58,212 nt of DNA. Origin: a candidate division FCPU426 bacterium. Its GTDB lineage: Bacteria; Oederibacteriota; Muellerivitia; Muellerivitales; Muellerivitaceae. Shown piece by piece: positions 25,450 through 41,256 of the stretch (its first letter is position 1; each line of letters starts with the position of its first letter). The stretch lies in assembly GCA_003152075.1 (NCBI GenBank), contig PLZG01000092.1:1-58212 (forward strand), in the 5' to 3' direction. The position numbers and the translations under genes are program-made. The notes under the pieces are model-generated. The model saw only the letters and a program-made list of their open reading frames with translations, was not told the DNA's origin and made no database searches.

Positions 25450-25473
25450 TAATTAAAGGGAAAAGGTTGGGTT

Positions 25474-26286: not shown

Positions 26287-26310
26287 CCAATTTTTGGTAT
26301 TTTGGTGGAT

Positions 26311-26339
26311 TTGACAGTACGCCATATATGGCGTACTCT
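26311..26339 (+). promoter_or_regulatory. Promoter with palindromic operator for XRE two-gene module
   Basis: TTGACA (26311-26316), 17-bp spacer, TACTCT (26334-26339). The spacer is almost filled by a perfect 22-bp palindrome, AGTACGCCATA/TATGGCGTACT (26316-26337), overlapping both hexamers. Binding there must exclude RNA polymerase. The XRE protein of the same unit is the obvious candidate. Confidence 0.75.
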
Positions 26340-26353
26340 AAAGGGGTGGAAAC

Positions 26354-26647
26354 GTGGATCATGTTGAAACCGAAGAATTTATTAAGTTCCTACATTTCCA
26401 TTTCAACGCTAAAGAAATGGAATCTTACCGACTTCTTGTTAAGGAGTTTCTGGGGTTTAAGGACCGGCGCGGGTTAATCGAAGGGTACATCTACAAGGAC
26501 GATGAGAAAAAATATCACTTATACTTTTATTATGGCCGAAATTCCTTCTATACCGTGACCGCCCACCTGGAACGAAAAGGCGAACCTAAAAAGGGATTTT
26601 CTGAAACGCTAAAAAACTACATCGCTTATCTGGAAAAGGAGGGGTAA
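26354..26647 (+). CDS. First gene of XRE module, possible toxin
   Basis: A 97-residue protein of unknown family. GTG at 26354 has AAGGGG seven bases upstream. It has no membrane span; the middle is beta-rich with YHLYFYYGRNSFYTVTAHLE, and the C terminus is basic (KGEPKKGFSETLKNYIAYLEKEG). It is followed two bases later by an XRE protein, and both are led by a promoter with a palindromic operator. This small protein plus HTH layout is typical of type II toxin-antitoxin modules with the toxin first (HigBA order), but the sequence does not show RelE/HigB signature residues, so toxin function is inference. Confidence 0.6.
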   Translation: MDHVETEEFIKFLHFHFNAKEMESYRLLVKEFLGFKDRRGLIEGYIYKDDEKKYHLYFYYGRNSFYTVTAHLERKGEPKKGFSETLKNYIAYLEKEG

Positions 26648-26649
26648 TT

Positions 26650-26997
26650 ATGAAAACAACCAACAAAAGTAAATTTGTTCCTCGCTTTTTGACCGAGAAG
26701 GAATCAATGGAGAGGCTTAAAAAGAATAGGCCTGATTTGTACGAAACCTTAAAAAAACCTTCTCCTAAAGCTTGCCTGGGGGCCAATGTTTCCACTTTGC
26801 GGCAGAAGAAGGGAATTAGCCAAAAGGAGTTAGCCGACAAAGGGAAGGTTGGTTTCCGCACTTTACAACGAATCGAAGAGGCGCAGCCGAACTCAAATCC
26901 GACAATGAACGCCATTGAAGGAGTAGCAAAGGCTTTAGGGGTTGAAGTTCAGGATCTCTTTAAAACGGTTGATCTTACGAAAACTTTTGGGCGGTAA
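26650..26997 (+). CDS. XRE-family DNA-binding protein, possible antitoxin
   Basis: A 115-residue protein with a 45-residue charged N-terminal extension and a C-terminal Cro/C1-type HTH: ANVSTLRQKKGISQKELADKGKVGFRTLQRIEEAQPNSNPTMNAIEGVAKALGVEVQDLF. AAGGAGGGG precedes the ATG at 26650. It likely represses the promoter at 26311-26339 through the 22-bp palindrome. It could be the antitoxin of the unit or simply the regulator of the following genes, which continue at 4-bp spacing. Confidence 0.82.
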   Translation: MKTTNKSKFVPRFLTEKESMERLKKNRPDLYETLKKPSPKACLGANVSTLRQKKGISQKELADKGKVGFRTLQRIEEAQPNSNPTMNAIEGVAKALGVEVQDLFKTVDLTKTFGR

Positions 26998-27000
26998 CCA

Positions 27001-27636
27001 ATGGGGCGGGATGGCAAAAGTTTTAAAAAGGGTTATATCCCGCTTAAATCCTCAACCGAGTACCGAACCTCAAAATTGGATTTAGCTAGAAACATTAAGG
27101 TGTTTGATAAACTTTGGAAAAGAGGCCTTTTACCCAAAGACTTCAAACAGCATTACTTCCTTACTTGGCTTGCATATAGCAATGGGAACGCATCAAAGCT
27201 TTCAAAGGCTTTAGGCCTTCATCGAAATACCATTATTTGGGTTTTTAAAAACCTCAAGATCAATAAGACCTATAAATTTCGGATACTTTGGCGTAACCAC
27301 CAAATGAAATCCCTTAAACAATCTTTTCATAAACAGTTCAATTCGTTCTTCAAAAAGATGGGTGGGAAACCCTCATTTAAACCTTTAGAGAATAAAAGCC
27401 TAGTAGCCTTGTGGCTGATGAAAATGCCGCCCAAGGCGGTAAAGACTCATTTTGTTTTATGGGCTTTAAGGAGTGGCTTTACCCGCAAACAAGTAAGCCA
27501 GAAACTCGATATTTCTGAAAGATCAATGCACAGGATTCGATTCAATGGTGCCCAAAAAAGTTCAAAAATGGGACAATGGCTTGCTCCATTAAAGCCAACC
27601 GTAAAAGATTGGTACCCTAATCGTAAAGTTACTTAG
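27001..27636 (+). CDS. Basic protein with two helix-turn-helix-like segments
   Basis: A 211-residue, very Lys/Arg-rich protein. Two similar halves each contain an HTH-like stretch: NASKLSKALGLHRNTIIWV around residues 65-83 and TRKQVSQKLDISERSMHRI around 160-178. The repeated layout suggests internal duplication, for example DFKQHYFLTWLAYSNGN against AVKTHFVLWALRSGFTR. Likely a DNA-binding protein, role unknown. ATG 27001 lies 4 bp after the XRE gene stop, so it belongs to the same transcript. Confidence 0.65.
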   Translation: MGRDGKSFKKGYIPLKSSTEYRTSKLDLARNIKVFDKLWKRGLLPKDFKQHYFLTWLAYSNGNASKLSKALGLHRNTIIWVFKNLKINKTYKFRILWRNHQMKSLKQSFHKQFNSFFKKMGGKPSFKPLENKSLVALWLMKMPPKAVKTHFVLWALRSGFTRKQVSQKLDISERSMHRIRFNGAQKSSKMGQWLAPLKPTVKDWYPNRKVT

Positions 27637-27644
27637 GACGGGTT

Positions 27645-27815
27645 ATGCCTGTATTTCAAAAAGGGGATTGGATTTCCCATAAACAAATGAAAATTGTAGG
27701 GAGGATCCTATCGGTGGATGAGAGAAACCAGGAGTACGAAGTTCGTGTGGCCGAAACATTACCGACACAGAATTGGGTTTTATCAGAAGTTGAGTTTTAT
27801 CAGGCGAGGCCATAA
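27645..27815 (+). CDS. Small protein in XRE-SRAP operon
   Basis: A 56-residue protein (begins MPVFQKGDWISHKQ) between the double-HTH protein and the SRAP gene, 8 bp after the former and 2 bp before the latter. AGGACGGG precedes the ATG. The composition is compatible with a small SH3-like beta-barrel: VGRILSVDERNQEYEVRVAE has alternating hydrophobic residues and a turn. No family recognised. Tight spacing on both sides is the main evidence that it is real. Confidence 0.6.
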   Translation: MPVFQKGDWISHKQMKIVGRILSVDERNQEYEVRVAETLPTQNWVLSEVEFYQARP

Positions 27816-27817
27816 CC

Positions 27818-28600
27818 ATGTGTGGGCGCTATACAGTTAAAACAAAAGATAAAAAACTCGCTGCCCAATTCCAGGCCAGCCTTCTTGAATCCTTTGATAA
27901 TCACTTTAACATTGCCCCAACTTTTAGAGTCCCTGTTGTCTTAATGGACACCGAGAAGAATGAACGCGTCTTAAAGAGGGATTATTGGGGTCTTGTTCCG
28001 TATTGGGCTAAAAACCCTAAGATCGCTTACCAAACTACCAATGCCAGGGCGGACACTGTCTCGGAAAAACCATCCTTCAAACGAGCCTTCAAAAAAACGC
28101 GTTGTCTAATAATTATGGATGGATTTTTCGAGTGGGAGCGATCCGTAACCCCCAAACAACCCTATTACATTTCTATGAAGGACGAACAGCCTTTTGCTTG
28201 CGCGGGGCTCTATGAAACATGGAAAGTTCGTTGGGAGGAGGACAAGAGAGACATCGAAAAAGCTGAAAAGACCGGGAAGAAACCTAAGGCAGTAAAATGG
28301 CCGATCAATCTTGGCGGGAAGAATTACAACGAGGGTGAGGAATTGGAATCCTGCTCAATCATAACGACCGAGCCTAATCCGCTTATGGCCAAGATCCACG
28401 ACCGGATGCCGGTAATAATTGACCCGAAAAACTATGAAGTTTGGCTTGACCCCAAAATGCACGACGAGGGTGTCCTCAAAACCTTATTAAAACCCTATAC
28501 AGATACAAAGATGCAATGCTGGCCCGTGAGCCAGGTCGTTAACAAGGTGGGGGATGATGACACCGAAAATTGCATCAAGGAAGTGAAGGTGCAATCGTGA
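27818..28600 (+). CDS. SRAP-domain protein (YedK/HMCES type)
   Basis: A 260-residue SOS-response-associated peptidase family protein. It starts MCGRYTV, so after Met removal Cys2 becomes the catalytic N terminus that crosslinks to abasic sites in single-stranded DNA. Other conserved marks are NIAPTFRVPVV, WGLVPYWAK, TTNARADTVSEKPSF, FFEWER and the His in IHDRMPVII. A Lys-rich insertion (about residues 143-175, DKRDIEKAEKTGKKPKAVKW) is longer than in short bacterial members. On a conjugative element it may protect transferred single strands. It overlaps the next small gene by four bases. Confidence 0.92.
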   Translation: MCGRYTVKTKDKKLAAQFQASLLESFDNHFNIAPTFRVPVVLMDTEKNERVLKRDYWGLVPYWAKNPKIAYQTTNARADTVSEKPSFKRAFKKTRCLIIMDGFFEWERSVTPKQPYYISMKDEQPFACAGLYETWKVRWEEDKRDIEKAEKTGKKPKAVKWPINLGGKNYNEGEELESCSIITTEPNPLMAKIHDRMPVIIDPKNYEVWLDPKMHDEGVLKTLLKPYTDTKMQCWPVSQVVNKVGDDDTENCIKEVKVQS

Positions 28601-28803
28601 AGGATTTTCCGTTTTGGAGGGGGGCAATTTACACCGCTAAGACTGCCCTTGCCTTAAAAGCCGTGGGGGAAGACCTCTCCCAATTCCAGAAACAGTCTGG
28701 ACTTTTTGGCGATGAGGAAGCCAAGCTTTCGGAGGCCCAAGTGGCTACCCTTCGGAAGCAATATTCCGAAAAGATGAAAAAACTTTTCACAGAAAGAATT
28801 TAA
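28597..28803 (+). CDS. Small protein overlapping SRAP gene
   Basis: A 68-residue protein starting GTG at 28597 inside the SRAP stop region (GTGA overlap), so translationally coupled. The sequence KDFPFWRGAIYTAKTALALKAVGEDL and QKQSGLFGDEEAKLSEAQVATLRKQYSEKMKKLF is helical and charged, without motif. I do not recognise the family; its coupling to SRAP suggests a shared task in DNA damage handling. Confidence 0.6.
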   Translation: MKDFPFWRGAIYTAKTALALKAVGEDLSQFQKQSGLFGDEEAKLSEAQVATLRKQYSEKMKKLFTERI

Positions 28804-28805
28804 AA

Positions 28806-28919
28806 ATGAAAGAATCTTTTACTTCGTCGGATGATAACCCGACCCAAGATGGTTTGAGAATTCTGCCGAAGTTCATTACAAGGGAGATTTTAAGAGAAGG
28901 ATTGATTCGTAGGAGGTAA
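28806..28919 (+). CDS. Very small ORF, possible peptide
   Basis: A 37-codon frame starting 3 bp after the preceding stop. The product ends LPKFITREILREGLIRRR, a basic amphipathic helix. The ribosome site AAAGAA is weak. Placement in a tight operon makes it plausible; nothing else supports it. Confidence 0.35.
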   Translation: MKESFTSSDDNPTQDGLRILPKFITREILREGLIRRR

Positions 28920-28948
28920 AATCAGTTGATAAAAATTGGAGATATTAA

Positions 28949-29290
28949 ATGGATAAATTATTTTTTGCCTTCGTTACAACTGGACCTCTTAAGGGTCGTA
29001 AATACATTGTTAAAACTGACTCCAAAATATTAATCGGCAGGGGCAAAGAATCAAACATCAGGATTGATTCGGATGATTTTTGCTCGCGAAAACACGCTTT
29101 ATTGTATTGGGTAGAAAGCAAATGTTTTTTGGAAGATCTTAATAGCACAAACGGAACTTTTCTCAATAAGAAAAAAATCGTCGGTAAAAAAGAAGTCAAA
29201 AACAAAGATATTATTGGCTTAGGCAATACTCAGTTATTGATTGGAATTAAAGAATTGCCAACTATTCAAAATCGAGATTCTCGCAAATGA
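28949..29290 (+). CDS. FHA-domain protein
   Basis: A 113-residue protein that is a single forkhead-associated phosphothreonine-binding domain. The conserved residues are all present: IGRGKESNIRI (Gly-Arg), CSRKHALLYW (Ser-Arg-x-His) and DLNSTNGTFLN (Asn, Thr-Asn-Gly). GGAG lies seven bases before ATG 28949. Its stop overlaps the start of the kinase gene by four bases (ATGA), which indicates translational coupling. Role: recognises a threonine phosphorylated by the adjoining kinase, on the kinase itself or on a substrate. First gene of an AT-rich cassette unlike the G/C-richer flanks. Confidence 0.9.
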   Translation: MDKLFFAFVTTGPLKGRKYIVKTDSKILIGRGKESNIRIDSDDFCSRKHALLYWVESKCFLEDLNSTNGTFLNKKKIVGKKEVKNKDIIGLGNTQLLIGIKELPTIQNRDSRK

Positions 29291-31041
29291 AAATTGGAAC
29301 AATTACCAGTGTCAAGTTTTTTGGAAATGAGAAATTTGCCGTTGGAAAAATACTTGAAGGCGGAATGGGAACGGTCTATCAACTCATTCCCATACGAATG
29401 GGAATGCCTGTATTCGCCCTTAAAACTTTAAAAGGCAATATGAAGATACGGGACTTTGATCGTGAATGTGAAGCTTGGCTTTCGGTTTCTCAGCACAAGA
29501 ACGTAGCCAGAGCGTTTGCTTTCGGCAATTGGGAAGGAATGCCATCCATCCTAGTTGATTGGTACGGAAAATCATTGGCCGAATTAAAAGCAGAAGAATG
29601 CAGCAACCATTTTATTATTGAAATTATAACTGGACTTTTTTCTGCTCTAAATTTTACTTACAAAACAACTGGAATGATTCATCAAGACATTAAACCCGCC
29701 AACGTGCTTATCGATGATCAAGGTTGTATAAAACTTGGCGACTTTGGACTTGCCCGTTGTGGAGTTAATGATATAGAAGTGAAGGAGAGTGAAAATTTAG
29801 ATTACGCAAACCTCAGTCGCACTTCGTCAGGAGTGTTGGGCGGAACTCCATTTTATATGGCACCTGAACTTTTTACGGGAGAAAAACCTTCCATCAAAAC
29901 AGATATTTTTTCTATGGGCGTAACCATATACCATTTTCTTACTGGGGAACATCCTTATTTTGGTTCTGAAACAAACGGCAAACTTTCAAAGCAAATTAGA
30001 ATGGAACCGCTGAGACGATTCTTAGATAAAAATGATAAAGATTTATTAAAAGCAATAAATGTCATTATTGCCTGTCTTTCTATCGATCCGAAAGGCAGGC
30101 CTAATAATTACCAAGAAACGGGAATGGTAGTTGAGGCAAAACTAGAAAAAGAAAACCAAGATAAGGAAACCGACTCAAAGGTTAGAGCAGTAGTTGCCAA
30201 AGCAATGTTGTACATAGATAAGGGTGATATTCAAATTGCAGATAATCTTCTTTTGGAAAATCTTTCTAAATCTGCCGAAAATCCAATTTTATTAAATTTT
30301 CTAGGCAGTCTTAGACTCAAGCAAGGAAGAAATAGCGAAAGTTTAAGTGCTTTCAAATCGGCCTTTGAAGTCCTAAAAAAGAAAAAAGGCCTTTTTCGAA
30401 GCGATCTTTTTCTTGAACCAGCGATTAACTTAGCAGGTCTGCTTCTCGAATCGAAAAATTTTAATGATGCCAACAAAATATTAAAATCAACATGGAGTTG
30501 GGCAAAAGAACACTCCAATGACGAAGATGATCTTTCTTTTCTGTTTTACGACAAGTATTGTTTCGGTGAATTCGGATGGATGTTTTTGAACGATGGGGAT
30601 TTTGGCCGTGCCTCAGTTTACCTTGAAAACGTGATTTCAAAAAAAGAGACAGGCCATATTTTCACTTATTATCTTTTAGAAGCGGCCTGGCTTTCAGATC
30701 AAATGAAAGAATACGCCGACTTGGTTGGTAGGAGAATTATTTCAAGAAAAGACCCATTTAATCCTTTACAACCTGATTTAGCTTCCGCTTTCGCAAATAG
30801 AATTACATCTGAATTTGTAAACCCCCAATTGAGGCAGCAACTTTGGGGAAGCCAAAGAGCGGGTTTAAGGGATTACATAAAATTGGAGGATGAATCAGGT
30901 CTAAAAAACGGTTCCCTAGTTATACCCAAAACTTTTGAAGCTCAAAAAATACTTATTCTTTCATTGGATAATATTTTAACGGGAGGTAAACACAATGGGT
31001 TTATTAGACAAATATCTCAACCCCGTTTGGGACAAAGTTAG
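29287..31041 (+). CDS. Ser/Thr protein kinase with C-terminal TPR-like region
   Basis: A 584-residue cytosolic kinase. Gly loop EGGMGTVY (24-31), Lys46 in VFALKTL, catalytic loop IHQDIKPANVLI (131-142; HQD instead of HRD, so it lacks the RD arginine), DFG at 152-154, and the P+1/APE segment GGTPFYMAPELF. The kinase ends near residue 285; the remaining 300 residues are helical repeats (AKAMLYIDKGDIQIADNLLLENL, NPILLNFLGSLRLKQGRNSESLSAFKSAFEVL) of TPR type. There is no transmembrane helix, unlike PknB. Coupled to the FHA gene by four bases, and overlapping the next gene by 47 bases, so the set is one transcript. Confidence 0.92.
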   Translation: MKIGTITSVKFFGNEKFAVGKILEGGMGTVYQLIPIRMGMPVFALKTLKGNMKIRDFDRECEAWLSVSQHKNVARAFAFGNWEGMPSILVDWYGKSLAELKAEECSNHFIIEIITGLFSALNFTYKTTGMIHQDIKPANVLIDDQGCIKLGDFGLARCGVNDIEVKESENLDYANLSRTSSGVLGGTPFYMAPELFTGEKPSIKTDIFSMGVTIYHFLTGEHPYFGSETNGKLSKQIRMEPLRRFLDKNDKDLLKAINVIIACLSIDPKGRPNNYQETGMVVEAKLEKENQDKETDSKVRAVVAKAMLYIDKGDIQIADNLLLENLSKSAENPILLNFLGSLRLKQGRNSESLSAFKSAFEVLKKKKGLFRSDLFLEPAINLAGLLLESKNFNDANKILKSTWSWAKEHSNDEDDLSFLFYDKYCFGEFGWMFLNDGDFGRASVYLENVISKKETGHIFTYYLLEAAWLSDQMKEYADLVGRRIISRKDPFNPLQPDLASAFANRITSEFVNPQLRQQLWGSQRAGLRDYIKLEDESGLKNGSLVIPKTFEAQKILILSLDNILTGGKHNGFIRQISQPRLGQS

Positions 31042-32410
31042 CCAAATTCAACCGCAGGGAATATTTGAACTCTCAACTATTATCTGCACGCACCAATTTC
31101 TTCGTAAAAGATTGAACGATGAAATGGTCGATCCACTTGATAACATTTTATTAAAAGAAGCAAAAAGATTTAATAAAAAGAGTGACGGAGCAGAGGTACT
31201 GATTTCTGATAAATTAAAAGAACTTTTGATCGATGAAATCGAAATTGGATTTCTTTGCTCCGTTCGCGGAAAAGTCTGGGGAAAAATAGACTTTAAATAT
31301 TTAGAATTATCTCTGCTCCCTGATTGCGCAGGCATTATTGCCTTAATCGAAAATAATGCTCGGCTAGGTAATGAATGCACAATTGGTTTAGCAGATACCG
31401 GTTACTCACGGGAACGAGAAGAATGTCGTGTCCAAATAATTATTAATTGGATGAAATTAATTAAGATAGACGACCCAGAATTTGTTAATTTTATTTCAAT
31501 GAGATACTTTGATAAAAAATGGCGCACTGTTTTAAAGTCTTTCCCCGAAGAATACTCTGAAAGTATTTTAAGGGAAACCTCGGAAACCCTTTTGGCGAAA
31601 ACCCGTAAGGAATTTATCGCCTTCAGCAAGCCATGCCAAAAATTTATTTTTCCCATAGCAACTGGTATCGCCAAAAAAATATACGAACAAAATATTACGG
31701 AACAAAAATCCCAAGTAGATAAAAAGCTAAGTTCTTCTGATCGTAGCAGAAATATGCCTCTTTGTTTTATCTCCGCAAAAGGCCTTCAGGAAATAGTGAA
31801 TGATGTCGCAAACAAAACAATGATTGTTTACAAAGATTTAAAGATAGATCACTATGAATTAACGAGACTTACCAGGGTCAAAAAAGATTGTCCGGTTGGC
31901 ATTTTGGTAAGGACTACTCTTTTGGATTGCTATGTTTATGCCTACACAGTTGTTCTTTCTACCGCCGTTATCATTCAACCCGAAAATTTCTTTAGCTGTT
32001 ATGTTGATAAAGAATTTGAAAAACATTTCCGTGACCAATACGGGGTAGAAATAGGAAAAAATGGGTTAAGTGGTGAAGAATATTTTCAATATGAAAATAA
32101 TGAACAGGCCACAGAAAAACCTACTGTTGGTGATCATTGGCTAAGGGTGCTTCTGCAAATGCGGAAAACCGCGGGTGATTATTCAAAGAGAATAAGCACG
32201 AATAAAAAACCTGAACCAATTACGTTATTTGACGCCACGACAGTTCTAAAACATGTGTGTTGTAGCCCTACTTGGAAAAATTTGTTCACTAAGTTTTCAT
32301 TAGAAAACGAAAAAGAAATTAGGTTAAAGGTAGAAAAACTTGTTGAAAAGATTAATTGGGAAAAAGTTCTTTCGAGGGAAAAATATGTTTCTGCCGATTT
32401 GCCGGAATAA
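30995..32410 (+). CDS. Unknown protein of FHA-kinase-TIR cassette
   Basis: A 471-residue protein with no family I can name. GGGAGG precedes ATG 30995 by eight bases, so the overlap of 47 bases with the kinase gene is real. No signal peptide or membrane helix. Visible features are a charged helical N-terminal half, FSKPCQKFIFPIATGIAKKIYE near residue 210, and a Cys-containing C-terminal stretch FDATTVLKHVCCSPTWKNLF. It could be the substrate of the kinase or the sensor of the system. Codon use is A/T-rich like its neighbours. Confidence 0.8.
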   Translation: MGLLDKYLNPVWDKVSQIQPQGIFELSTIICTHQFLRKRLNDEMVDPLDNILLKEAKRFNKKSDGAEVLISDKLKELLIDEIEIGFLCSVRGKVWGKIDFKYLELSLLPDCAGIIALIENNARLGNECTIGLADTGYSREREECRVQIIINWMKLIKIDDPEFVNFISMRYFDKKWRTVLKSFPEEYSESILRETSETLLAKTRKEFIAFSKPCQKFIFPIATGIAKKIYEQNITEQKSQVDKKLSSSDRSRNMPLCFISAKGLQEIVNDVANKTMIVYKDLKIDHYELTRLTRVKKDCPVGILVRTTLLDCYVYAYTVVLSTAVIIQPENFFSCYVDKEFEKHFRDQYGVEIGKNGLSGEEYFQYENNEQATEKPTVGDHWLRVLLQMRKTAGDYSKRISTNKKPEPITLFDATTVLKHVCCSPTWKNLFTKFSLENEKEIRLKVEKLVEKINWEKVLSREKYVSADLPE

Positions 32411-32452
32411 ATTTAAAATTTTGGTCCGTTAAATAAGGGGTTAGGGGGGGGA

Positions 32453-33121
32453 ATGGCAAGAGTTTTTATTTCACACAGTGAAAAAGATTTAGAACTTAAA
32501 AATTTCATCGCAGGTTTATTTGCCTCTTCAGACGTAACTGCTTACTTTGCGGAATGGGAGAAAGTGATCGATAAAAACCCCGTAGATGGAATTAAGATTG
32601 AAAATGATATTAAACAATCGGACGCTTTGTTTATATTGTTGAGCCAAAACGTAGAAAATTTAAAACATACTAGGGACTGGGTTCAATGGGAGACAGGTAT
32701 TGCAAAAGGCGCAGGAAAAGAAATATGGGTTTTTGAACCAGCTGGTCAATTGGGAAGCATTACTGTAGTAACACCTTCCTTGCATCATTTAGTAATTTAC
32801 GCAACTAATGACCCGTGGCACACATATCTGGCTTCAGCAGTTAGAGCCTTTGGGAAAGCCAAAACTGTGGGCGTTTCAACGTTACTAGGTATAGCCATTG
32901 GCGCTTTGTTGGGTGGAGAACGAGGCGCTGTAACAGGTGGAGCACTTGGCCTTGGTCTCTCTCTAGCAGCGACTGATGATTTAAAAAAACCAGCAGGATT
33001 AGATTTTAAATGTGGTAACTGTCAGGGTTCTTTCAAAATACATGTACCGGAAAGATTACAAAAACTGAGATGTCCTATTTGTAATTCAATTAATGAAATG
33101 GCCTGGCCTAAGTTGTCTTAA
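32453..33121 (+). CDS. TIR-like domain, glycine-zipper and zinc-ribbon protein
   Basis: A 222-residue protein in three parts. Residues 1-130 are TIR-like: RVFISHSEKDLELKNFI (beta-A and BB region), SDALFILLSQN, and WVQWETGIAKGAGKEIWVF, where Glu80 of QWE sits where the NADase catalytic Glu of bacterial TIR effectors is found. Residues 139-172 are a Gly/Ala-rich hydrophobic stretch (STLLGIAIGALLGG...TGGALGLGLSLAA) able to insert in membrane. The end is a zinc ribbon with CGNC and CPIC (Cys 187, 190, 207, 210). Likely the effector of the cassette, by NAD cleavage or membrane damage. Confidence 0.8.
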   Translation: MARVFISHSEKDLELKNFIAGLFASSDVTAYFAEWEKVIDKNPVDGIKIENDIKQSDALFILLSQNVENLKHTRDWVQWETGIAKGAGKEIWVFEPAGQLGSITVVTPSLHHLVIYATNDPWHTYLASAVRAFGKAKTVGVSTLLGIAIGALLGGERGAVTGGALGLGLSLAATDDLKKPAGLDFKCGNCQGSFKIHVPERLQKLRCPICNSINEMAWPKLS

Positions 33122-33184
33122 CCGCAAGATTCTTTTCCAAAATTCTTGACCCTTAATAAAGCTCGCCGGAGGGACAATTTCCAA

Positions 33185-33718
33185 ATGTCAAATCTTGAAT
33201 ACATTCTCGTTATATTTTTTGGTCTTGTTTCAGGCGTCCAGTTAATAAATTCACAATTTCAACAAGGAATTGGAACTGCTGTTATTGGTGTGTGCATTGT
33301 CCTGCTTTTTCACTTTATTTTTAGAAAGCAAAAGATTCAGCAAACACCTCTAAATTGTGTGAAGATTTTTTTAAAAAAGAGGAGCAAGTCCGCCATAAAA
33401 TTAAGTGGAAGAAATTATCTTTCGATCGAACTCGTTTATGCATGGGAAAACAGGAGCATGGAGGCGTTTGACATTGCTTTCAAAAATGGGCGAAAAGATT
33501 TCTTGGATATAAAAGAAAGAATCAACGGATATAACTCATTAAAAACAAAAGAACAATTAGTTAAAATATTAGAAGATTATTCAGTTCTCTTCAGAATCAT
33601 GGCGGGAGAAGGAATTAATATGGTTGCAGGCAATGCAATCGTTTTAAGTTCTTTGAACCCGGAATTTAAAAACTGCGAAGACTTAAATGAGTTTGAAGTG
33701 GATAGACCTCTAATTTAA
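33185..33718 (+). CDS. Two-helix membrane protein next to TIR gene
   Basis: A 177-residue protein with two N-terminal transmembrane helices (YILVIFFGLVSGVQLI and GIGTAVIGVCIVLLFHFIF) and a 125-residue charged cytosolic part (RGKDF... ERINGYNSLKTKEQLVKILEDYSVLFRIMAGEG). ATG at 33185; the longer frame from 33146 starts with TTG and lacks a site. It lies 63 bp after the TIR-like gene in the same direction. Unknown family. It may be a membrane anchor or second effector of the cassette, or independent. Confidence 0.65.
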   Translation: MSNLEYILVIFFGLVSGVQLINSQFQQGIGTAVIGVCIVLLFHFIFRKQKIQQTPLNCVKIFLKKRSKSAIKLSGRNYLSIELVYAWENRSMEAFDIAFKNGRKDFLDIKERINGYNSLKTKEQLVKILEDYSVLFRIMAGEGINMVAGNAIVLSSLNPEFKNCEDLNEFEVDRPLI

Positions 33719-33795
33719 TTAGTAGTTGTGTCTTTCCATGCAATGGCTGAAGAACCTTGTTAAAATCGCTTAATAAACTCACATCAAATTTAGTA

Positions 33796-33801
33796 TATAA
33801 T
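33796..33801 (+). promoter_or_regulatory. Candidate -10 box before peptide-ATP-grasp genes
   Basis: A perfect TATAAT in an A/T-rich stretch, 42 bp before the short peptide gene. No good -35 hexamer is seen at 17 bp, so confidence is limited. Confidence 0.35.
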
Positions 33802-33842
33802 TTAGTCCGCTACCTATTATTTAAGACCACATTGGAGAAAAA

Positions 33843-34064
33843 ATGAAGTCCAATCTAATTGAATCAACTCTGATATACACTAAAAACAATGGAGCCAAAG
33901 TAGGGTCTTTACCAAACATGATTTATAACGAAGAACTCGGTGCTTGGACAATCCCGCATTTGGGTAAATACGTTCCAATTGTCACAACGGAATTGAGTTC
34001 CGTTATAAGAGCAGGTTCCAAGAAAAATGACATAGAAACGGGAGAAGATGTAAAAGGAACGTGA
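33843..34064 (+). CDS. Candidate precursor peptide of graspetide type
   Basis: A 73-residue peptide with GGAG five bases before ATG, placed 12 bp ahead of an ATP-grasp ligase gene. It has no signal peptide and no Cys. The C terminus is rich in donors for side-chain cyclisation: Thr, Ser and Lys (VTTELSSVIRAGSKK) followed by an acidic stretch DIETGED (63-69) and KGT. Graspetides link Ser/Thr/Lys side chains to Asp/Glu carboxylates, so this is a plausible core. It lacks the microviridin TxKYPSD motif, so it would be a new class. Modification is inference from context. Confidence 0.6.
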   Translation: MKSNLIESTLIYTKNNGAKVGSLPNMIYNEELGAWTIPHLGKYVPIVTTELSSVIRAGSKKNDIETGEDVKGT

Positions 34065-34076
34065 TAGAAATATCAC

Positions 34077-35021
34077 TTGGTTAGCCCTCGAATTCTCTTA
34101 ATTTCTAGCACATTGGATTTTAGTACTGATTACATTGCCGTTGGACTAGGTCAATTAGGCGTGCCATTTGTCAGATTGAATCGCGACACTTTGGCCGATT
34201 CCGAAATAAATTTTTTCCCCACAAAAAGGACTTTGGAATACCGATCAAAACAATTACGGTTTAGTATCTCCGATTCCAAGCTTAAAGCTGTTTATTACAG
34301 GGCTCCTACATTTTTAAGAGAACTAGGAAATCAAAATCTTACTCTAAATGAAAAACTAGTCGTTTCACAATGGGCTACATTTTGTCGAGCCCTATCGGTT
34401 TTTGAAAAAGCAAAATGGATTAATTGGCCAGCTGCAACCTATTTAGCAGAGATCAAACCTTATCAACTCTCAATGGCCGAAAAAATCGGTTTCAAAATAC
34501 CCAATACCATAATCACCAATAATCAAACCGCAGCAAAAAAAATAAAATCAAAAACTATTGCGGTAAAGAGCCTTGATACGATTGTAGTTTCTGGTAAAAA
34601 TAAAACTGGATTTTTTTATACAACAGAATTTAAGAAAACCGAACTTTCCAAATTTGCCATGCAAAAAACACCTGTAATCATTCAAAGTTTTTTGAAAGAA
34701 AAAATCGACATCCGCGTTACAGTGGTAGGGAAAAAAATATTTTCTGTCAAAATATTGTGTGACGGTTTCGGTGTCGAAGGTGACTGGCGGTTAAAAAAAG
34801 CCAACCTCAGATATATACCTTTTGATCTTCCCAACGACATAAAAAGAAAATGTTTTGCATTAACGAAACGCTTGGGACTTGTTTTCGGCGCAATAGATTT
34901 TGTTTTAGTGAAAGGTAAATACTATTTCCTGGAAATAAATCCAACCGGTGAGTGGTCATGGTTACTTGACACCGCAAAGCTTCCGATAGATTCTGCCATT
35001 ATTAGAGAATTAACGCTTTAG
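34077..35021 (+). CDS. ATP-grasp ligase, MvdD/graspetide-synthetase-like
   Basis: A 314-residue ATP-grasp enzyme. The N-terminal domain (RILLISSTLDFSTDYIAVGLGQLGVPFVRLNRD) and middle part (KAVYYRAPTF, AVKSL, VIIQSFLKEKIDIRVTVVGKKIF) match the RimK/MvdD group; the Mg-binding end FLEINPTGEWSWL (284-296) is the graspetide-synthetase signature E-x-NP-x-G-x-W-x-WL. Such enzymes form ester or amide macrocycles on a precursor peptide. TTG at 34077 is the only usable start after the peptide gene. No second ligase or acetyltransferase is adjacent, so a single ring type is likely. Confidence 0.85.
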   Translation: MVSPRILLISSTLDFSTDYIAVGLGQLGVPFVRLNRDTLADSEINFFPTKRTLEYRSKQLRFSISDSKLKAVYYRAPTFLRELGNQNLTLNEKLVVSQWATFCRALSVFEKAKWINWPAATYLAEIKPYQLSMAEKIGFKIPNTIITNNQTAAKKIKSKTIAVKSLDTIVVSGKNKTGFFYTTEFKKTELSKFAMQKTPVIIQSFLKEKIDIRVTVVGKKIFSVKILCDGFGVEGDWRLKKANLRYIPFDLPNDIKRKCFALTKRLGLVFGAIDFVLVKGKYYFLEINPTGEWSWLLDTAKLPIDSAIIRELTL

Positions 35022-35030
35022 GGAGTAAAT

Positions 35031-35645
35031 ATGTTATTTCCAAATGATTACTTCAAATCCGAGGACCTACTCATTGGTCAAATAAATGCAAAACTTTCTG
35101 AACCTCCACCCAAAACTCTGCTCAAGCTTGGCTTCCGAAGACTTGAAGAATTAAATAATAAAGAAATAGAGCGAAAAAAAATCATTGAGGAAAAAGCTCG
35201 AACAAATTTATTGGGTTTGAGCGTTGGATTTCCCCTCGTATTTACAGGCGGAAGTTTTATGTTTAAGGTCGCAATAACGGTCAGCGGTTGTTTTAGTTCG
35301 TTTGTTTTAAAGTCACTTCTAGCAAGTGGTATTGCATTCATCCTTTTAGGCGGTTGGTTTTCGTTGCGCGCATTAAGAATACGAATGGTTTATTCCATTT
35401 ACCTTCATGACGAACTAGAGTTTATAAAAATACCAAATAAACGGTTACGCATAAAAAAATATTGCGACGAGCTTTGGCGAAGTATAGAAGTGAACCTAAG
35501 ATATACGATGATCCAATCAAATTATGTAGACGGAAGCTACGTCTATATCAGTATAGGAATAATTTGCCTCGCGTCTTATATTTTTTACGTTTTCTTTGGC
35601 TTAGATGGGACCACTAAACTAGCGATAGCAACTGGTATTAAATAA
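35031..35645 (+). CDS. Membrane protein of ATP-grasp cassette
   Basis: A 204-residue protein with about three membrane segments (LLGLSVGFPLVFTGGSFMF, LLASGIAFILLGGWFSL, YVYISIGIICLASYIFYVFFGL), a charged N-terminal helix (FRRLEELNNKEIERKKIIEEKA) and a cytosolic central loop. GGGAG precedes ATG 35031 at eight bases; the gene is nine bases after the ligase stop. There is no transporter ATPase or protease motif. It could export or sense the modified peptide, or be a pore held in check by it. Family not recognised. Confidence 0.75.
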   Translation: MLFPNDYFKSEDLLIGQINAKLSEPPPKTLLKLGFRRLEELNNKEIERKKIIEEKARTNLLGLSVGFPLVFTGGSFMFKVAITVSGCFSSFVLKSLLASGIAFILLGGWFSLRALRIRMVYSIYLHDELEFIKIPNKRLRIKKYCDELWRSIEVNLRYTMIQSNYVDGSYVYISIGIICLASYIFYVFFGLDGTTKLAIATGIK

Positions 35646-35749
35646 AAAAACTCAATCGGTCTCACAAGGGAAAGCGTAAGATTATTAATTTTGGATAAGA
35701 ACTTATAAAAGTGTACTTCCAAACTTGTTCGCCACGAGGGGATTAGTAA

Positions 35750-36349
35750 ATGACTGAAATTATTGTAAGCAAGATAAAACGTATCTATTCCGCCGTTGGT
35801 GAAATGAATGAAAAAGATTTAAATACATTGACTCCTATACCCGTAAAGGAAGGGGATTTTAAAGGAGTTAAATTTAACGTCAGAAATGACTTAACCGATG
35901 AGCAGTTAACTAATTATTGCTATTCGGCCATACATAACGTTTCTAATTTAAAAGACAACATAACTAAGTGGGCAAAAAATAATGGCAAGGATTCTCAAAA
36001 AATTCTTGATGAGTTTAATAAATCACAGGAATTAAAAGTTTTATCAGATTTGTCGAATCAGGATAAACATGGCGGTGATGATCGAGATGGTGGCTTTTCT
36101 AAGTTATATCCAAAGTTAAATAATGTTAGGCGATTATTACAAATATCATCTACAGACCCTAACACACCAGCCCAAATAGGACCTTTGCTCGATGGAAAAA
36201 TTAATATCGTTGGAAACAATACCAAACTTGTTATTACTGGAGATATTTTCGACTCAAACGGACAGTTGGTTGGTGATTTAAATGATTATTTGGGAAAGGC
36301 TTTAGTTATTTGGGAAAGTATTCTTAAGAGTTATGGATTAAAATTTTAA
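35750..36349 (+). CDS. Hypothetical protein of accessory region
   Basis: A 199-residue soluble protein with a mainly helical N-terminal two thirds and a beta-rich end (GKINIVGNNTKLVITGDIFDSNG). The segment LSDLSNQDKHGGDDRD contains an N-x-x-KH arrangement that recurs in uncharacterised proteins of host-interaction or HEPN-like helical folds, but the R-x4-6-H RNase motif is not clear. ATG 35750 has no strong site. Alone between the ATP-grasp cassette and a DUF4236-like gene. Function unknown. Confidence 0.6.
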   Translation: MTEIIVSKIKRIYSAVGEMNEKDLNTLTPIPVKEGDFKGVKFNVRNDLTDEQLTNYCYSAIHNVSNLKDNITKWAKNNGKDSQKILDEFNKSQELKVLSDLSNQDKHGGDDRDGGFSKLYPKLNNVRRLLQISSTDPNTPAQIGPLLDGKINIVGNNTKLVITGDIFDSNGQLVGDLNDYLGKALVIWESILKSYGLKF

Positions 36350-36432
36350 AGACTGTTCTCGATTTCAGTATCCAACTATTCGATTTGAAGAATACTCAGA
36401 GTTCTGAGCTTTCCACTACGGGGAGTAATAAA

Positions 36433-36741
36433 GTGAGTTTTCGATTTCGCATAGGCCCCTTTACATTCGGTAGCACGGGCGTTCGCTTGAGCTTATGGGG
36501 TCGTGGAATGGGGGCTTCAATCCCGTTGTCGGGGAAAGGTCGCTCTTTTGGCAAGGTGCGCGTGGGACCGATTACCAAGTATTTCTCTGGCAAGCGTTCG
36601 ACTGAAGCATGGGAAGACGATCCAGCCACTGAACGGCAGAAGAATTTTGCGAACGATTTGAACATCAAATACCCGAAAAACGTAACCAAGGGTGAGCTAT
36701 CCGATATGATTTCAAAGGCAAGGGGTAAGAAGCCAAATTGA
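36433..36741 (+). CDS. DUF4236-like small protein
   Basis: A 102-residue protein starting GTG at 36433, seven bases after GGGAG. The N-terminal half SFRFRIGPFTFGSTGVRLSLWGRGMGAS resembles DUF4236 (FRFRKSxxxGPGxRLNxSxxG). The C-terminal part ATERQKNFANDLNIKYPKNVTKGELSDMISKARG resembles the short helical module that recognises or accompanies nucleic-acid proteins (Q-x-x-x-A-x-x-L). Upstream in-frame start at 36385 lacks a site. Palindrome copy 10 begins 34 bp after the stop. Confidence 0.65.
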   Translation: MSFRFRIGPFTFGSTGVRLSLWGRGMGASIPLSGKGRSFGKVRVGPITKYFSGKRSTEAWEDDPATERQKNFANDLNIKYPKNVTKGELSDMISKARGKKPN

Positions 36742-36775
36742 TTCCGGTCAAGTCAACTGCTATTGAGTTCTAAAC

Positions 36776-36805
36776 TTGTCCACCACGTGGACCCGAATTG
36801 GACGA
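36776..36805 (+). repeat. Palindromic intergenic repeat, copy 10 (in mobile region)
   Basis: TTGTCCACCACGTG, GA, CCCGAATTGGACGA. Degenerate arms, but same position after a stop codon and same orientation as the chromosomal copies. Confidence 0.6.
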
Positions 36806-36867
36806 TCATTTTAGCAAGCAGGTCTTTTAAAATTCTTTTCCAATATATAATTAGACAGGGCAATTAA

Positions 36868-38124
36868 ATGCGTCACTTATTTGATCAATATGAGCAGCCC
36901 GAAAACAGGCTGACACATGCCCTAGTTATGGGTTTATCTCAAGACAATAAACTTTTAAAAGCCTTTGTGCTGTATTTTCTGGGACGGAAAATACCTAAAC
37001 GAGAACGATTGGTAATCGTAGAACAGACAGTTCCTGGAAAAGCAGAACCTACGGAAGAGCAAGCAGAAAAGAAGGGCCTTCCGGACGCATTTATATATAG
37101 CGAGAAATCCGGGTGGGCTTTAATCATAGAAAGCAAAATAGAAGCGGCACTTACAATAGATCAACTTGAACGGCATTTAAAAACGGCCAGGAAACACAAC
37201 TTCACTAACGCTCGAGTGCTTGTCCTGGCAACAGAAAATAAACTCAAAAACATTCCTAAGAAATACAAGGCAGCTTCTTGGCCTACAATTTATACCTGGC
37301 TTTCAAAACATCGTAAGAAATCACAATGGGCTCGTCTCATAACCGAGTACATTGAAATCTTGGAGGCGAAAATGGCGCAAAAAGAACAGTTGAAAAGTGG
37401 AACTTTAACAAAGTTTTCTGGTGTTCCTTTCAAAAACGAGAATCCATATACCTATATTCAAGCCAAACGAATACTGGAACTCATCATGGATGAACTAAAG
37501 AAAAGGAAGGGTATTAAAAATCTAGGTGTGGACTCTAATCATCCTGGACGCCCAGCTATAAAAAGCGGCAAAGATAATTCCGTCTGGGATTTTATGAAAC
37601 TTAGGTCATCTTCTATTAATGACGCTTTTACAAGACATCCTCATTTGACTGTTGTCATTAATGCTGAAACGGTTCAAGTTTTGGTCACTATGCCCAATAG
37701 GGTAAAAAACAAAATTAGGATAAGCGTTTTTGGAAAAGACATTGAACCTTTCGCATCTTTAATTGAAAAAATCGCCAAGAATATGAAGTCCGTTACCAGG
37801 ATGGAGCCCACTGCAATGCCTTACTTACAAGTGCTCCAAAGACATTATAAAAGCCAAAGTAGCACTCCAATTGTAGATGCAATTTTGCGGTATGACATTC
37901 GAACTGTATTGAAGAAGCAAGAGTCGAAACAACCAAAAATCCAACCACAATGGATTCAAACCACCTATGACGTAATGACGCATAAAAAATCAAACATACA
38001 ATTCGAATTTGGGGTCATTTTCCCTTATCAGGATTCAAAAATATTGTCGAAGCCAAAGGCTATTGATGCATTTGAAAAGGCGTTTGTGGCTATAAAACCG
38101 TTTTTGGAGATGGCTATCAAATAA
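36868..38124 (+). CDS. PD-(D/E)XK nuclease-like protein
   Basis: A 418-residue protein. Residues about 65-100 hold GLPDAFIYSEKSGWALIIESKIEAALTIDQLERH, with the Asp, the E-x-K pair and the downstream Gln typical of PD-(D/E)XK superfamily nucleases (PDDEXK_4 type). The C-terminal 230 residues have no motif I know (KRILELIMDELKKRKGIKNLGVDSN onwards). AGGG precedes ATG 36868. In this setting, next to other accessory genes, it could be a DNA-cleaving defence protein. It has no methylase partner. Confidence 0.8.
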   Translation: MRHLFDQYEQPENRLTHALVMGLSQDNKLLKAFVLYFLGRKIPKRERLVIVEQTVPGKAEPTEEQAEKKGLPDAFIYSEKSGWALIIESKIEAALTIDQLERHLKTARKHNFTNARVLVLATENKLKNIPKKYKAASWPTIYTWLSKHRKKSQWARLITEYIEILEAKMAQKEQLKSGTLTKFSGVPFKNENPYTYIQAKRILELIMDELKKRKGIKNLGVDSNHPGRPAIKSGKDNSVWDFMKLRSSSINDAFTRHPHLTVVINAETVQVLVTMPNRVKNKIRISVFGKDIEPFASLIEKIAKNMKSVTRMEPTAMPYLQVLQRHYKSQSSTPIVDAILRYDIRTVLKKQESKQPKIQPQWIQTTYDVMTHKKSNIQFEFGVIFPYQDSKILSKPKAIDAFEKAFVAIKPFLEMAIK

Positions 38125-38753
38125 GATGAGTTGTCGTATTGGCGAGAAAAAAATTGTCACAATAGGGCGATATCTCATAAGGGTCTCGAATGCTTGGAGC
38201 TATTCAAATTGAAAAACGATCTGTTGCCCTTTTTAAATAGTATAAAAGAACTTTTTCACACTGAAATGGATCGGCAGACTTCCGCCTGTTTATATGGGTC
38301 TGCGGCCACAGACAATTGGGTCGCAGCAAGAAGCGATTTAGACCTATTTGCACTTGTTCCCGAGGAAAAAATAGAGCTTTTTGGGGAAAAGATAAAAATA
38401 TGGAAATCGATACCGACTAATCCAGGCCTGGATGGGTTTGTTCTTTATTCGTCGGGCAACGTTCCTATGGTTAGAGAATTTAAAAAATTCGAGAAAGCGA
38501 TTCGGCTTACGGCGAATTTCATCCCGTTTATTGATCTATGGAACGTTAAGAATCAATCCGTACATCTTTTTGGTCAAGATATGAAAACATTCGTTCGGGA
38601 GATCAATCGAGAAGAACTAAAAGACTGGGCGATCAAGGATATAGAGAATCACTGGATTCCGATTATGAGCTATGGAGTTTCGCTTTGTGACCTTACCCCC
38701 GAAAACTGATCCAAAAATATGTTAGCTTTGGAAATCAGATTCGGGAGGAAAAA

Positions 38754-39023
38754 ATGGCGAAGAAACGGTTTTTGTCCGAGCAGATAGTGGCTATTCTCCG
38801 CGAGGCGGAGAAGGCTCCCTCCGTTGAAGAAGTCCTTCGAAAACACGGTATTTCCGAGCAAACCTACTACCGCTGGAAACGCATGTACGGAAACCTTGGA
38901 ATTTCCGAGGTCCAGCGGATCAAGCAGCTGGAAGAGGAGAACCGGAAACTCAAACAATTGGCCGGGGATCAAGCTCTAGCGATCCAAGTCCTCCAAGAAC
39001 ACATAAAAAAAAAGGGGTACTGA
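38754..39023 (+). CDS. IS3-family transposase OrfA
   Basis: An 89-residue protein with the transposase HTH (KRFLSEQIVAILREAEKAPSVEEVLRKHGISEQTYYRWKRMYG) and a leucine-zipper-like coiled coil (IKQLEEENRKLKQLAGDQAL). GGGAGG precedes ATG 38754. The 3' end contains the heptamer A-AAA-AAG (39008-39014), where minus-one frameshifting would join OrfA to OrfB to give the active transposase. OrfA alone binds the ends and regulates. Confidence 0.92.
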   Translation: MAKKRFLSEQIVAILREAEKAPSVEEVLRKHGISEQTYYRWKRMYGNLGISEVQRIKQLEEENRKLKQLAGDQALAIQVLQEHIKKKGY

Positions 39024-39040
39024 CCGAGGAACAAAAAGGC

Positions 39041-39850
39041 ATGGTGGAAGCCTTGAAGGCACAAGAAGTGCCAGAAAGACGAGCCTGCAAGGTTTTGGGT
39101 GTGAGCCGGTCTAGCTTTCGGTACGAGGTTAGGCCGGAAGACCCGTTGAACCAGGTGATCCGGGAAGAAATGGTCAAGCTGGCGCAAAGGAATCGACGGT
39201 TCGGAAGCCCACGGATGTTGTGGATGTTGGAACGCCAGGGATTCGACGTGAATCACAAGAAGGTGGAGAGGTTGTACAACGAAGCAGGGCTTCAATTGCC
39301 GCGCAGGAGGCCCAGGAAGAAGCGAGTTCAAAGGGAGTGGAAAAGGCCACATCCAGCCTTGGGCTCCAACGAGGTTTGGACGATGGATTTCGTGCATGAC
39401 CTGACGTGGTTCGGCGGGAAGGTGAAGTTCCTGACGGTGCTGGACGAAGGATGCCGGGAATGCTTGGAGATCCGGGCGGAGAAGCGGCTGAGGAGCCGCG
39501 ACGTGTTAGAAACTTTGGATGAGTTGATGACGGAGCATGGGGCACCAAAATACATGCGGGTGGACAACGGACCGGAGTTCGTGGCCTGGGAGCTTAGGAA
39601 CTGGCTTGAAGAGAAGGGTGTTCAAGTGCTATACATCGAACCGGGGAGCCCTTGGCAGAACGGGTTCATCGAAAGTTTCAACGGAAAGTTCAGGGACGAG
39701 TGCCTGAATCAGGAAATTTTCCTGTCGAAAGCGGAGGCTCAGGTGGTCGTGGATTGGTGGAGGCAGGTGTATAACTGGCAGAGGCCGCACAGCAGTCTGG
39801 GTGGCAAGACGCCGATGGAAGCAAAGATGGAAAAGTTGGGCCTTAACTAA
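39041..39850 (+). CDS. IS3-family transposase OrfB (DDE integrase)
   Basis: A 269-residue protein, with a HTH_21 segment (FGSPRMLWMLERQGFDVNHKKVERLY) and an rve integrase core: first Asp in WTMDFVHD, second in MRVDNGPEFV, Glu in NGFIESFNGKFRDECLN. The frame is open upstream to the slip site at 39008-39014, so the real product is probably OrfAB made by minus-one frameshift rather than initiation at 39041. No frame disruption is seen; the element may be active. Confidence 0.92.
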   Translation: MVEALKAQEVPERRACKVLGVSRSSFRYEVRPEDPLNQVIREEMVKLAQRNRRFGSPRMLWMLERQGFDVNHKKVERLYNEAGLQLPRRRPRKKRVQREWKRPHPALGSNEVWTMDFVHDLTWFGGKVKFLTVLDEGCRECLEIRAEKRLRSRDVLETLDELMTEHGAPKYMRVDNGPEFVAWELRNWLEEKGVQVLYIEPGSPWQNGFIESFNGKFRDECLNQEIFLSKAEAQVVVDWWRQVYNWQRPHSSLGGKTPMEAKMEKLGLN

Positions 39851-40197
39851 CTTAAATTTGGATCGAATATTGGGGGAAGGTCACATCGTCTGAAACTAAA
39901 GTTTCACTATCCACCCTTATCATTACGGCCAGCGGAGTAGCTCGAGCGCTCATGCTCGCAAGGGGAAATATTTGTAATTCCAAGCGCGAGTCATTGCAGT
40001 GGCTTTCGGGCGAGTGCGGCGAAATTAAGGAGATGATTAGTCTGCTTATAGAAGACTTTGAGAATTCAGATGATTTAGCCGTAAATTTCACCCTTCGGCA
40101 GACTGCTTCTTTAGGAAGGTCTTATTTACGTCTACTTCAAGAGGTAAAGCCCTAACCAACTCGCGGTGTATTTTTTTAGATGGGGAGGTTTTCGAAT

Positions 40198-41256
40198 ATG
40201 GGAAATTGTTTATTTACGGATGAAGAAGCACGTATAGTTATGTTTCCAATGAATGGAAAAATGAATGGGAATTTATTATATAAATCGGAAATTTGTGGAT
40301 ATTACGGAATTTCTGAATCTTTAGAAAGATTTTTAAAAGCAAAGCCATTAACTGATCAAATGAAGGCGAAGTGTGCCTACCAGTGTCTGAAATTGATGAA
40401 AAGCAATCCCGAAAAAGCGTCATTCTGGGTAAATAAAGAAAACGAAAATTCAATGTTTCAAATTCTAAAAGAAGAGAACTTGGATTCAAATTGGCTTATT
40501 TATGTTTTCGAAGACGTAATCAATGAATCTGTAGATCATGCAGAAAAACCAAATGATTTATTACAAATCTTAGCCCAAAAGTTGAATCTCAAAGGGGCCT
40601 TTGATGAAGTTTCGATATCTAAAAAAGATATGCTAATGGCCAGAATTGATAATGTGGCTGAATTGTTTAGAGTCGTTGATTATTTGGAAAATAAAAATTA
40701 TTTAAAGGTTCAATATCCTCTTGGGGATGGTGGTGCCGAACATAAAATGCACACAATTTTTAATTTAAAACTTAGATTTAATATTCAAGGCTGGGAAGAG
40801 ATTAAAAGAAGGTCTGCTTTCCAAAACACAAACAAAGTTTTGATTGCCATCCAATTTATTTGGCCCGATGAACAGGAGTTGCGGCAAGAGGTTCTTTTAG
40901 CGATAAAAGAAGCGTGCAAAAGTAATGGATATGAAGCTGACGTAGTGAATCAGGATCATACTGGGAACGTTAGCGATCAAATTATTTCCGACATTAAGAA
41001 GTCGAGGTTCGTTGTCGCGGAATTAACTTACAATAACCGTGGTGTTTATTTTGAAGCCGGGTTCTCTCGTGGGTTAGGTTTGCCTGTTTTTCATTTAGTT
41101 CGTAACGGCCATATTGATGGCGAGGATAAAGAGGGAAAGAAAGTTCATTTTGACATTCAACAACTAATGTATAGAAAGTGGACTAACCCGGAAGAATTAA
41201 AGAATGGATTGAAATCTTGGATTGCTGCAACAGTTGGACCATACGAAGTAAAGTAA
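40198..41256 (+). CDS. Protein with C-terminal nucleoside deoxyribosyltransferase-like domain
   Basis: A 352-residue protein. The C-terminal 145 residues (VLIAIQFIWPDEQELRQEVLLAIKEACKSNGYEADVVNQDHTG...SRFVVAELTYNNRGVYFEAGFSRGLGLPVFHLVR) have the Rossmann-like fold and Tyr-x-Glu-x-Gly signature of nucleoside 2-deoxyribosyltransferase/TIR-like NAD or nucleotide hydrolases. The N-terminal 200 residues are an unassigned helical sensor-like region. GGGGAGG lies ten bases before ATG 40198, which I prefer to ATG 40180. It follows the split nucleotidyltransferase and may be an accessory defence effector; that is inference. Confidence 0.75.
   Translation: MGNCLFTDEEARIVMFPMNGKMNGNLLYKSEICGYYGISESLERFLKAKPLTDQMKAKCAYQCLKLMKSNPEKASFWVNKENENSMFQILKEENLDSNWLIYVFEDVINESVDHAEKPNDLLQILAQKLNLKGAFDEVSISKKDMLMARIDNVAELFRVVDYLENKNYLKVQYPLGDGGAEHKMHTIFNLKLRFNIQGWEEIKRRSAFQNTNKVLIAIQFIWPDEQELRQEVLLAIKEACKSNGYEADVVNQDHTGNVSDQIISDIKKSRFVVAELTYNNRGVYFEAGFSRGLGLPVFHLVRNGHIDGEDKEGKKVHFDIQQLMYRKWTNPEELKNGLKSWIAATVGPYEVK

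Follow-up and report, generated by a model that had tools for sequence, protein, structure and literature searches.

A three-gene locus of the window (the whole 58,212-nucleotide contig PLZG01000092.1 of a candidate division FCPU426 bacterium) encodes a short peptide, an ATP-grasp ligase of the graspetide synthetase family and a small membrane protein. As judged from sequence, the conserved C-terminal core of this peptide is very probably cross-linked by graspetide chemistry. The gene context of the trio suggests a role in defence, against phages or mobile elements, to which we give slightly less than an even chance. The three genes that a sequence-only reading had located at 33843-35645 are all present on the plus strand:

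33843..34064, plus strand: precursor peptide, 73 aa plus stop; open reading frame with a GGAG Shine-Dalgarno sequence a few bases 5' of the ATG.
33924..33947, plus strand: conserved leader element Y28-x4-G33-x-W35; 14 aligned precursors all share the Y, G and W.
34017..34061, plus strand: predicted core SKKNDIETGEDVKGT, residues 59-73; pattern [ST]KKxD[ILV]ETGEDxKG in 16 of 16 peptides, with codon-level purifying selection.
34077..35021, plus strand: ATP-grasp ligase of the graspetide synthetase family, 314 aa, TTG start; assigned by the TIGR04187, MvdC and MvdD models and by structures.
35031..35645, plus strand: membrane partner with three transmembrane (TM) segments, 204 aa, with long pre-membrane helices; supported by hydropathy, AlphaFold and co-inheritance with the ligase.

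Twelve bases separate the stop codon of the peptide from the TTG of the ligase, and nine separate the ligase from the membrane protein gene. In related loci the ends of neighbouring genes often overlap by 4 bases, suggesting that the trio is probably a translationally coupled operon. A scan for promoters and terminators gave nothing exceeding chance. As already remarked in the sequence-only reading, the unit includes neither a protease nor an ABC exporter: a scan of neighbour proteins revealed no peptidase, ABC exporter or methyltransferase. No second ATP-grasp protein occurs among the ten neighbouring proteins scanned, and the locus carries a single ligase gene.

The ligase matches the TIGR04187 (E=2.7e-54), MvdC (5.5e-43) and MvdD (1.7e-32) models, in each case under the curated cut-off (NCBIfam), which places it in the superfamily but outside every named member. 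Its nearest solved structures are AMdnB (E=5e-26), MdnB/C-type ligases, CdnC, an MvdD-like protein and PsnB. Models and structures both identify it as a relative of the graspetide synthetases, in agreement with the assignment first proposed from its C-terminal end, FLEINPTGEWSWL. Residues R213, D274, E286 and N288 are invariant in 11 relatives; we take the last three to occupy the positions that usually bind metal and ATP in the C-terminal lobe of ATP-grasp enzymes. A DNA search identified no relatives in E. coli.

The peptide gene lies directly 5' of a ligase of the same subfamily in all 16 related loci, which belong to several phyla. Every peptide terminates with the [ST]KKxD[ILV]ETGEDxKG pattern followed by one variable residue. 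The alignment of peptides encoded beside related ligases, recommended by the sequence-only reading, thus defined a core shared by 16/16 loci; the lack of a conserved peptide, which that reading named as a refutation, was not observed. The homologues support both the reading of DIETGED as an acceptor stretch and its distinctness from the microviridin TxKYPSD motif. Mean identity, calculated for 15 of the 16 loci with the core taken as the last 16 residues, reaches 77% for the core; it is 48% in the ligases, 35% in the leaders and 27% in the membrane proteins. Codon differences within the core, summed over all pairs, include 696 synonymous and 393 non-synonymous changes, an excess indicating that the protein sequence is under selection and does not reflect recent copying. 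Conserved Ser/Thr/Lys donors and Asp/Glu acceptors are found in the adjacent precursor in 16/16 cases. Position 59 is exclusively Ser or Thr, as one would expect if it serves as an ester donor, and the putative acceptors D63, E65, E68 and D69 are unchanged in all compared peptides. Together with the five predicted donors (S59, K60, K61, T66 and K71), these four acceptors would allow as many as four rings.

One instance of the core pattern is present in the window, compared to none in 100 shuffles. A tblastn search of plasmids using a homologous peptide alone returned nine records, all with an adjoining ligase of the same subfamily; eight had previously been found via the ligase, and the new one is a Xenorhabdus megaplasmid. 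Scanning all viral contigs for the pattern gave two matches, both already known as ligase carriers. The core provides a fixed 14-residue target for structure work and mass spectrometry.

The sequence-only reading envisaged a new graspetide class. The core is indeed distinct from that of microviridins. However, its ligase, its leader layout and the fact that it includes a membrane protein connect the trio with repeat-core and thuringinin loci (PMC8939145), and "new class" is therefore too strong. Microviridin MdnB-MdnC and chryseoviridin CdnC have full-length ligase homology in common with the trio, but the core here is SKKNDIETGEDVKG rather than TxKYPSD, and one ligase is present instead of two, which places the trio outside the microviridins. 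Unlike microviridin and chryseoviridin loci, it also includes neither an acetyltransferase nor a C39/ABC gene. The best NCBIfam model for the ligase is TIGR04187, that of the tgmB systems of Streptomyces (graspimiditides); here, however, there is no O-methyltransferase partner, the precursor is unrelated and the ligase score is under the family cut-off.

The nearest published layout is that of the thuringinin-type loci (Lee groups 3-6; Makarova precursor cluster 13), which likewise carry a single ATP-grasp, a precursor and a membrane protein with no known exporter. Their cores are repeated (T-x-T ... E-x-x-D), whereas the trio has one short C-terminal KKxDxETGEDxKG and no repeats. An uncharacterised membrane protein (cluster 18) is specific to thuringinin loci and has been proposed to function in transport (Makarova et al., PMC8939145). 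A possible link of this protein to the membrane protein of the trio would run via a set of distant repeat-core relatives. These relatives, found in Croceicoccus, Sinorhizobium, P. aeruginosa and other Pseudomonas-family genomes, Agrobacterium and a Leptospira phage, have an identical three-gene order and precursors with several TKTxxxxExDD-like repeats. Comparison of the repeat-core and ETGED leaders gave an hhalign score of 21.9 (best of 100 column shuffles, 18.2). With the graspetide leader types PFFARFL or Phhx(1,2)h as reference, the repeat-core relatives carry PFLxxxA and the ETGED group H[IV]L...A plus YxxxxGxW. The membrane proteins of the two groups are linked at 94% by profile comparison. 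In the Leptospira phage LalZ_80412 (L012:3682-5583), the membrane protein of the repeat-core version matches phrog_21292 (unknown function) while the ligase matches phrog_2599, whose annotation as S6 glutaminyl transferase is likely a mislabel.

Rosaritide and corallotide provide examples in which a co-occurring partner protein can be needed for synthesis, and their Lys-acceptor isopeptide KxxxD rings are a further likeness (PMC13097080). Their partners are a SurA-like protein and an oxygenase, whereas that of the trio is a membrane protein. A 2026 survey described 19 further graspetide groups (25-43), some with proteins of no known family (PMC13097080). The ETGED core could already figure in the supplementary group tables of this or other surveys; among the listed titles, no graspetide paper with ETGED was found.

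Three membrane regions are predicted by hydropathy and three long helices by AlphaFold in the protein encoded at the end of the unit, in line with its initial description as a 3-TM protein. In the model of the window copy (pLDDT 76.6), the helices span residues 34-84, 87-116 and 137-189 and are presumed to extend from the cytosolic side through the membrane; the P. lini protein (residues 1-195) gave a better model. The window protein has no Pfam match, SLATT included, and the membrane protein has none in PADLOC or PHROGs. Structure searches of the PDB and a viral library with the two AlphaFold models retrieved nothing better than E ~0.2, and no recognisable relative or fold was found outside trio loci. 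PycTM and SLATT defence effectors are likewise small multi-TM proteins with helices before the membrane, but kinship with PycTM (PF18967) was rejected (hhalign 0.5% and 0.3%, no Pfam match).

A tblastn search of plasmids with the window membrane protein, too divergent a query, gave no match. The same search with a repeat-core membrane protein identified five plasmids, in all of which the gene adjoins a graspetide ligase; it therefore appears dedicated to such loci. A viral scan with the repeat-core profile returned nothing. Ligase and membrane protein are co-inherited and co-vary, their distances being strongly correlated (Mantel r=0.94, 0/10000 permutations).

The gene pair is rare and scattered. 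A ligase-based search identified it on plasmids of Rhizobium, Agrobacterium, Martelella, Azospirillum and Mesorhizobium and in two viral contigs. Genomes that carry it are those of Caulobacter, Pseudomonas lini, Komagataeibacter, one Rhodocyclales bacterium, one Bryobacteraceae bacterium and one KSB1 bacterium. Among sampled Gammaproteobacteria only the seed genome carries it (1/369); in Alphaproteobacteria it is limited to the seed genome (1/385) plus one distant relative. No relatives were found in the 44 other genomes of the window's own phylum (1/45 with the window genome). The ligase tree mixes classes, grouping Azospirillum, Komagataeibacter, Rhodocyclales and Pseudomonas on one side and Rhizobium with Caulobacter on the other. 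Two copies are prophage-borne, one located between Mu-like G (virion morphogenesis) and I genes and the other near a terminase. Upstream of a prophage-borne trio, a fusion of a Mu-like gpF head protein with an ADP-ribosyltransferase domain was observed (L032:2277-3674; PF01129/PF03496, E=2e-17).

Several copies neighbour known defence genes. In Caulobacter, a complete Thoeris-like pair (L016:2404-4487; SIR2-STALD ThsA, E=1e-152, and TIR ThsB, 2e-65) is located ~1.3 kb upstream of the trio. AbiE adjoins the trio in Martelella and, together with a Lamassu pair, in Rhizobium ZX09; neighbours elsewhere are a Dsr1-like SIR2 protein (Agrobacterium), PD-Lambda-4_A (the Rhodocyclales genome) and AbiD (P. 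lini). Of 71 flanking proteins, at least 13 have PADLOC model hits at E<=1e-20, compared to 2 of 81 in size-matched control stretches of the same replicons (Fisher p=0.002). The control is small, some of the models are generic (kinases, UvrD helicase) and the loci are not fully independent, since the plasmid pairs L004/L005 and L006/L007 have common flanks; the excess is thus good but not conclusive evidence. Peptide, ligase and membrane protein themselves have no HMM match in PADLOC-DB 2.0.0.

The neighbours of the window copy are only weakly defence-like. It resides in a low-GC island (23641-41000; mostly 0.36-0.42 and ~0.36 around the trio, compared to mostly 0.46-0.54 outside) together with genes for a TraG/TrwB-like conjugation coupling protein, an HTH antitoxin-like gene product, an SRAP protein, an FHA and Ser/Thr kinase pair, a TIR-like protein, a PDDEXK (PDC-S26-like) nuclease and an IS3-type transposase. 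At 28949-33121, an FHA protein, a Ser/Thr kinase with a TPR-like tail, a 471-aa protein and a TIR-like protein with a zinc-ribbon-like part at its C-terminal end are encoded in a row, which possibly represents a kinase/TIR conflict system in its own right. A kinase-TPR gene is also close to the trio in Komagataeibacter (L020).

The plasmid, prophage and anti-phage-gene settings of the trio in very different bacteria suggest that the presumably cross-linked peptide is used in phage defence. We therefore favour, tentatively and at a little under even chances, a graspetide system complete in itself that travels as cargo of mobile elements and acts inside the cell as a module for phage defence or mobile-element conflict. 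The Y-x4-G-x-W region in the N-terminal part of the peptide would dock on the ligase, which would phosphorylate the side chains of D63, E65, E68 and D69 and join them to those of S59, K60, K61, T66 and K71, so that the final ~15 residues would form a small macrocycle, either caged or hairpin in shape. Since no leader peptidase or exporter is present, the product most likely remains in the cell and acts jointly with its 3-TM partner at the inner membrane. A core so close to invariant suggests a single fixed binding partner rather than a diversifying antibiotic under arms-race selection; this partner might be the membrane protein or a conserved component of the cell or of the phage. The module would most likely protect against phages or against rival mobile elements; in it, the membrane protein would be the effector or would guard a toxic peptide. 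The sequence-only reading had suggested signalling or defence rather than protease inhibition; gene context backs defence, while nothing specific was found for signalling.

Genomic islands hold many non-defence cargoes, and the invariance of the core would also be consistent with a protease inhibitor whose target is fixed. No precedent for a role of graspetides in phage defence was found in the literature searched, and the graspetide passages of one paper pairing the two topics do not include this system. It is a more doubtful proposition that the trio is the first graspetide-based anti-phage system, spread by plasmids and prophages, in which an intracellular peptide with a fixed core and cross-linked side chains gates the 3-TM protein or is guarded by it. 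If true, graspetide chemistry would gain a new biological job, with a core more conserved than its own synthetase travelling with anti-phage genes, and a small three-gene system would tie peptide macrocyclisation directly to phage immunity.

The best surviving alternative, although unlikely, is an exported graspetide, the membrane protein being a non-ABC exporter and the product acting outside the cell as a protease inhibitor or antibacterial. All characterised graspetides are reported to be protease inhibitors, and the membrane proteins of thuringinin loci, which include no known exporters, are those for which transport was proposed (Makarova et al., PMC8939145). However, with three TM helices and long pre-membrane helices the protein is small for an exporter, no leader peptidase accompanies the trio, the core hardly varies across phyla, and the trio sits in defence islands and prophages.

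Scarcely better placed, and likewise unlikely, is a toxin-immunity or addiction system in which the cross-linked peptide would be toxic inside the cell or to neighbouring cells; immunity conferred by the membrane protein would then stabilise plasmids and prophages. Carriage by such elements, the tight coupling of three genes with overlapping ends and a membrane gene dedicated to trio loci are all consistent with it. However, immunity proteins usually co-diversify with their peptide, whereas here the core is fixed and the membrane protein diverges more than any other part.

A graspetide trio of routine housekeeping or regulatory function, present in islands merely through mobility, would agree with the mixed cargo of islands; the very rare and patchy occurrence of the trio and the strong excess of defence neighbours make this improbable. 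The least credible alternative is that the ligase attaches the peptide to other proteins without internal cross-link, as in pupylation: KG followed by Q or E at most C-termini recalls the GGQ/E end of Pup, but the final residue may also be D, H or T, a variability that led us to disfavour Pup-like tagging, and the enzyme is a macrocyclase-family ATP-grasp and not a GS-like PafA.

Three decayed copies were also observed. The Xenorhabdus ligase is cut by an IS630 element (L053:4986-5563), IS66 lies between the Mesorhizobium ligase and membrane gene (L011:3944-5529), and the Martelella membrane gene is split between two frames (L006:4924-5608).
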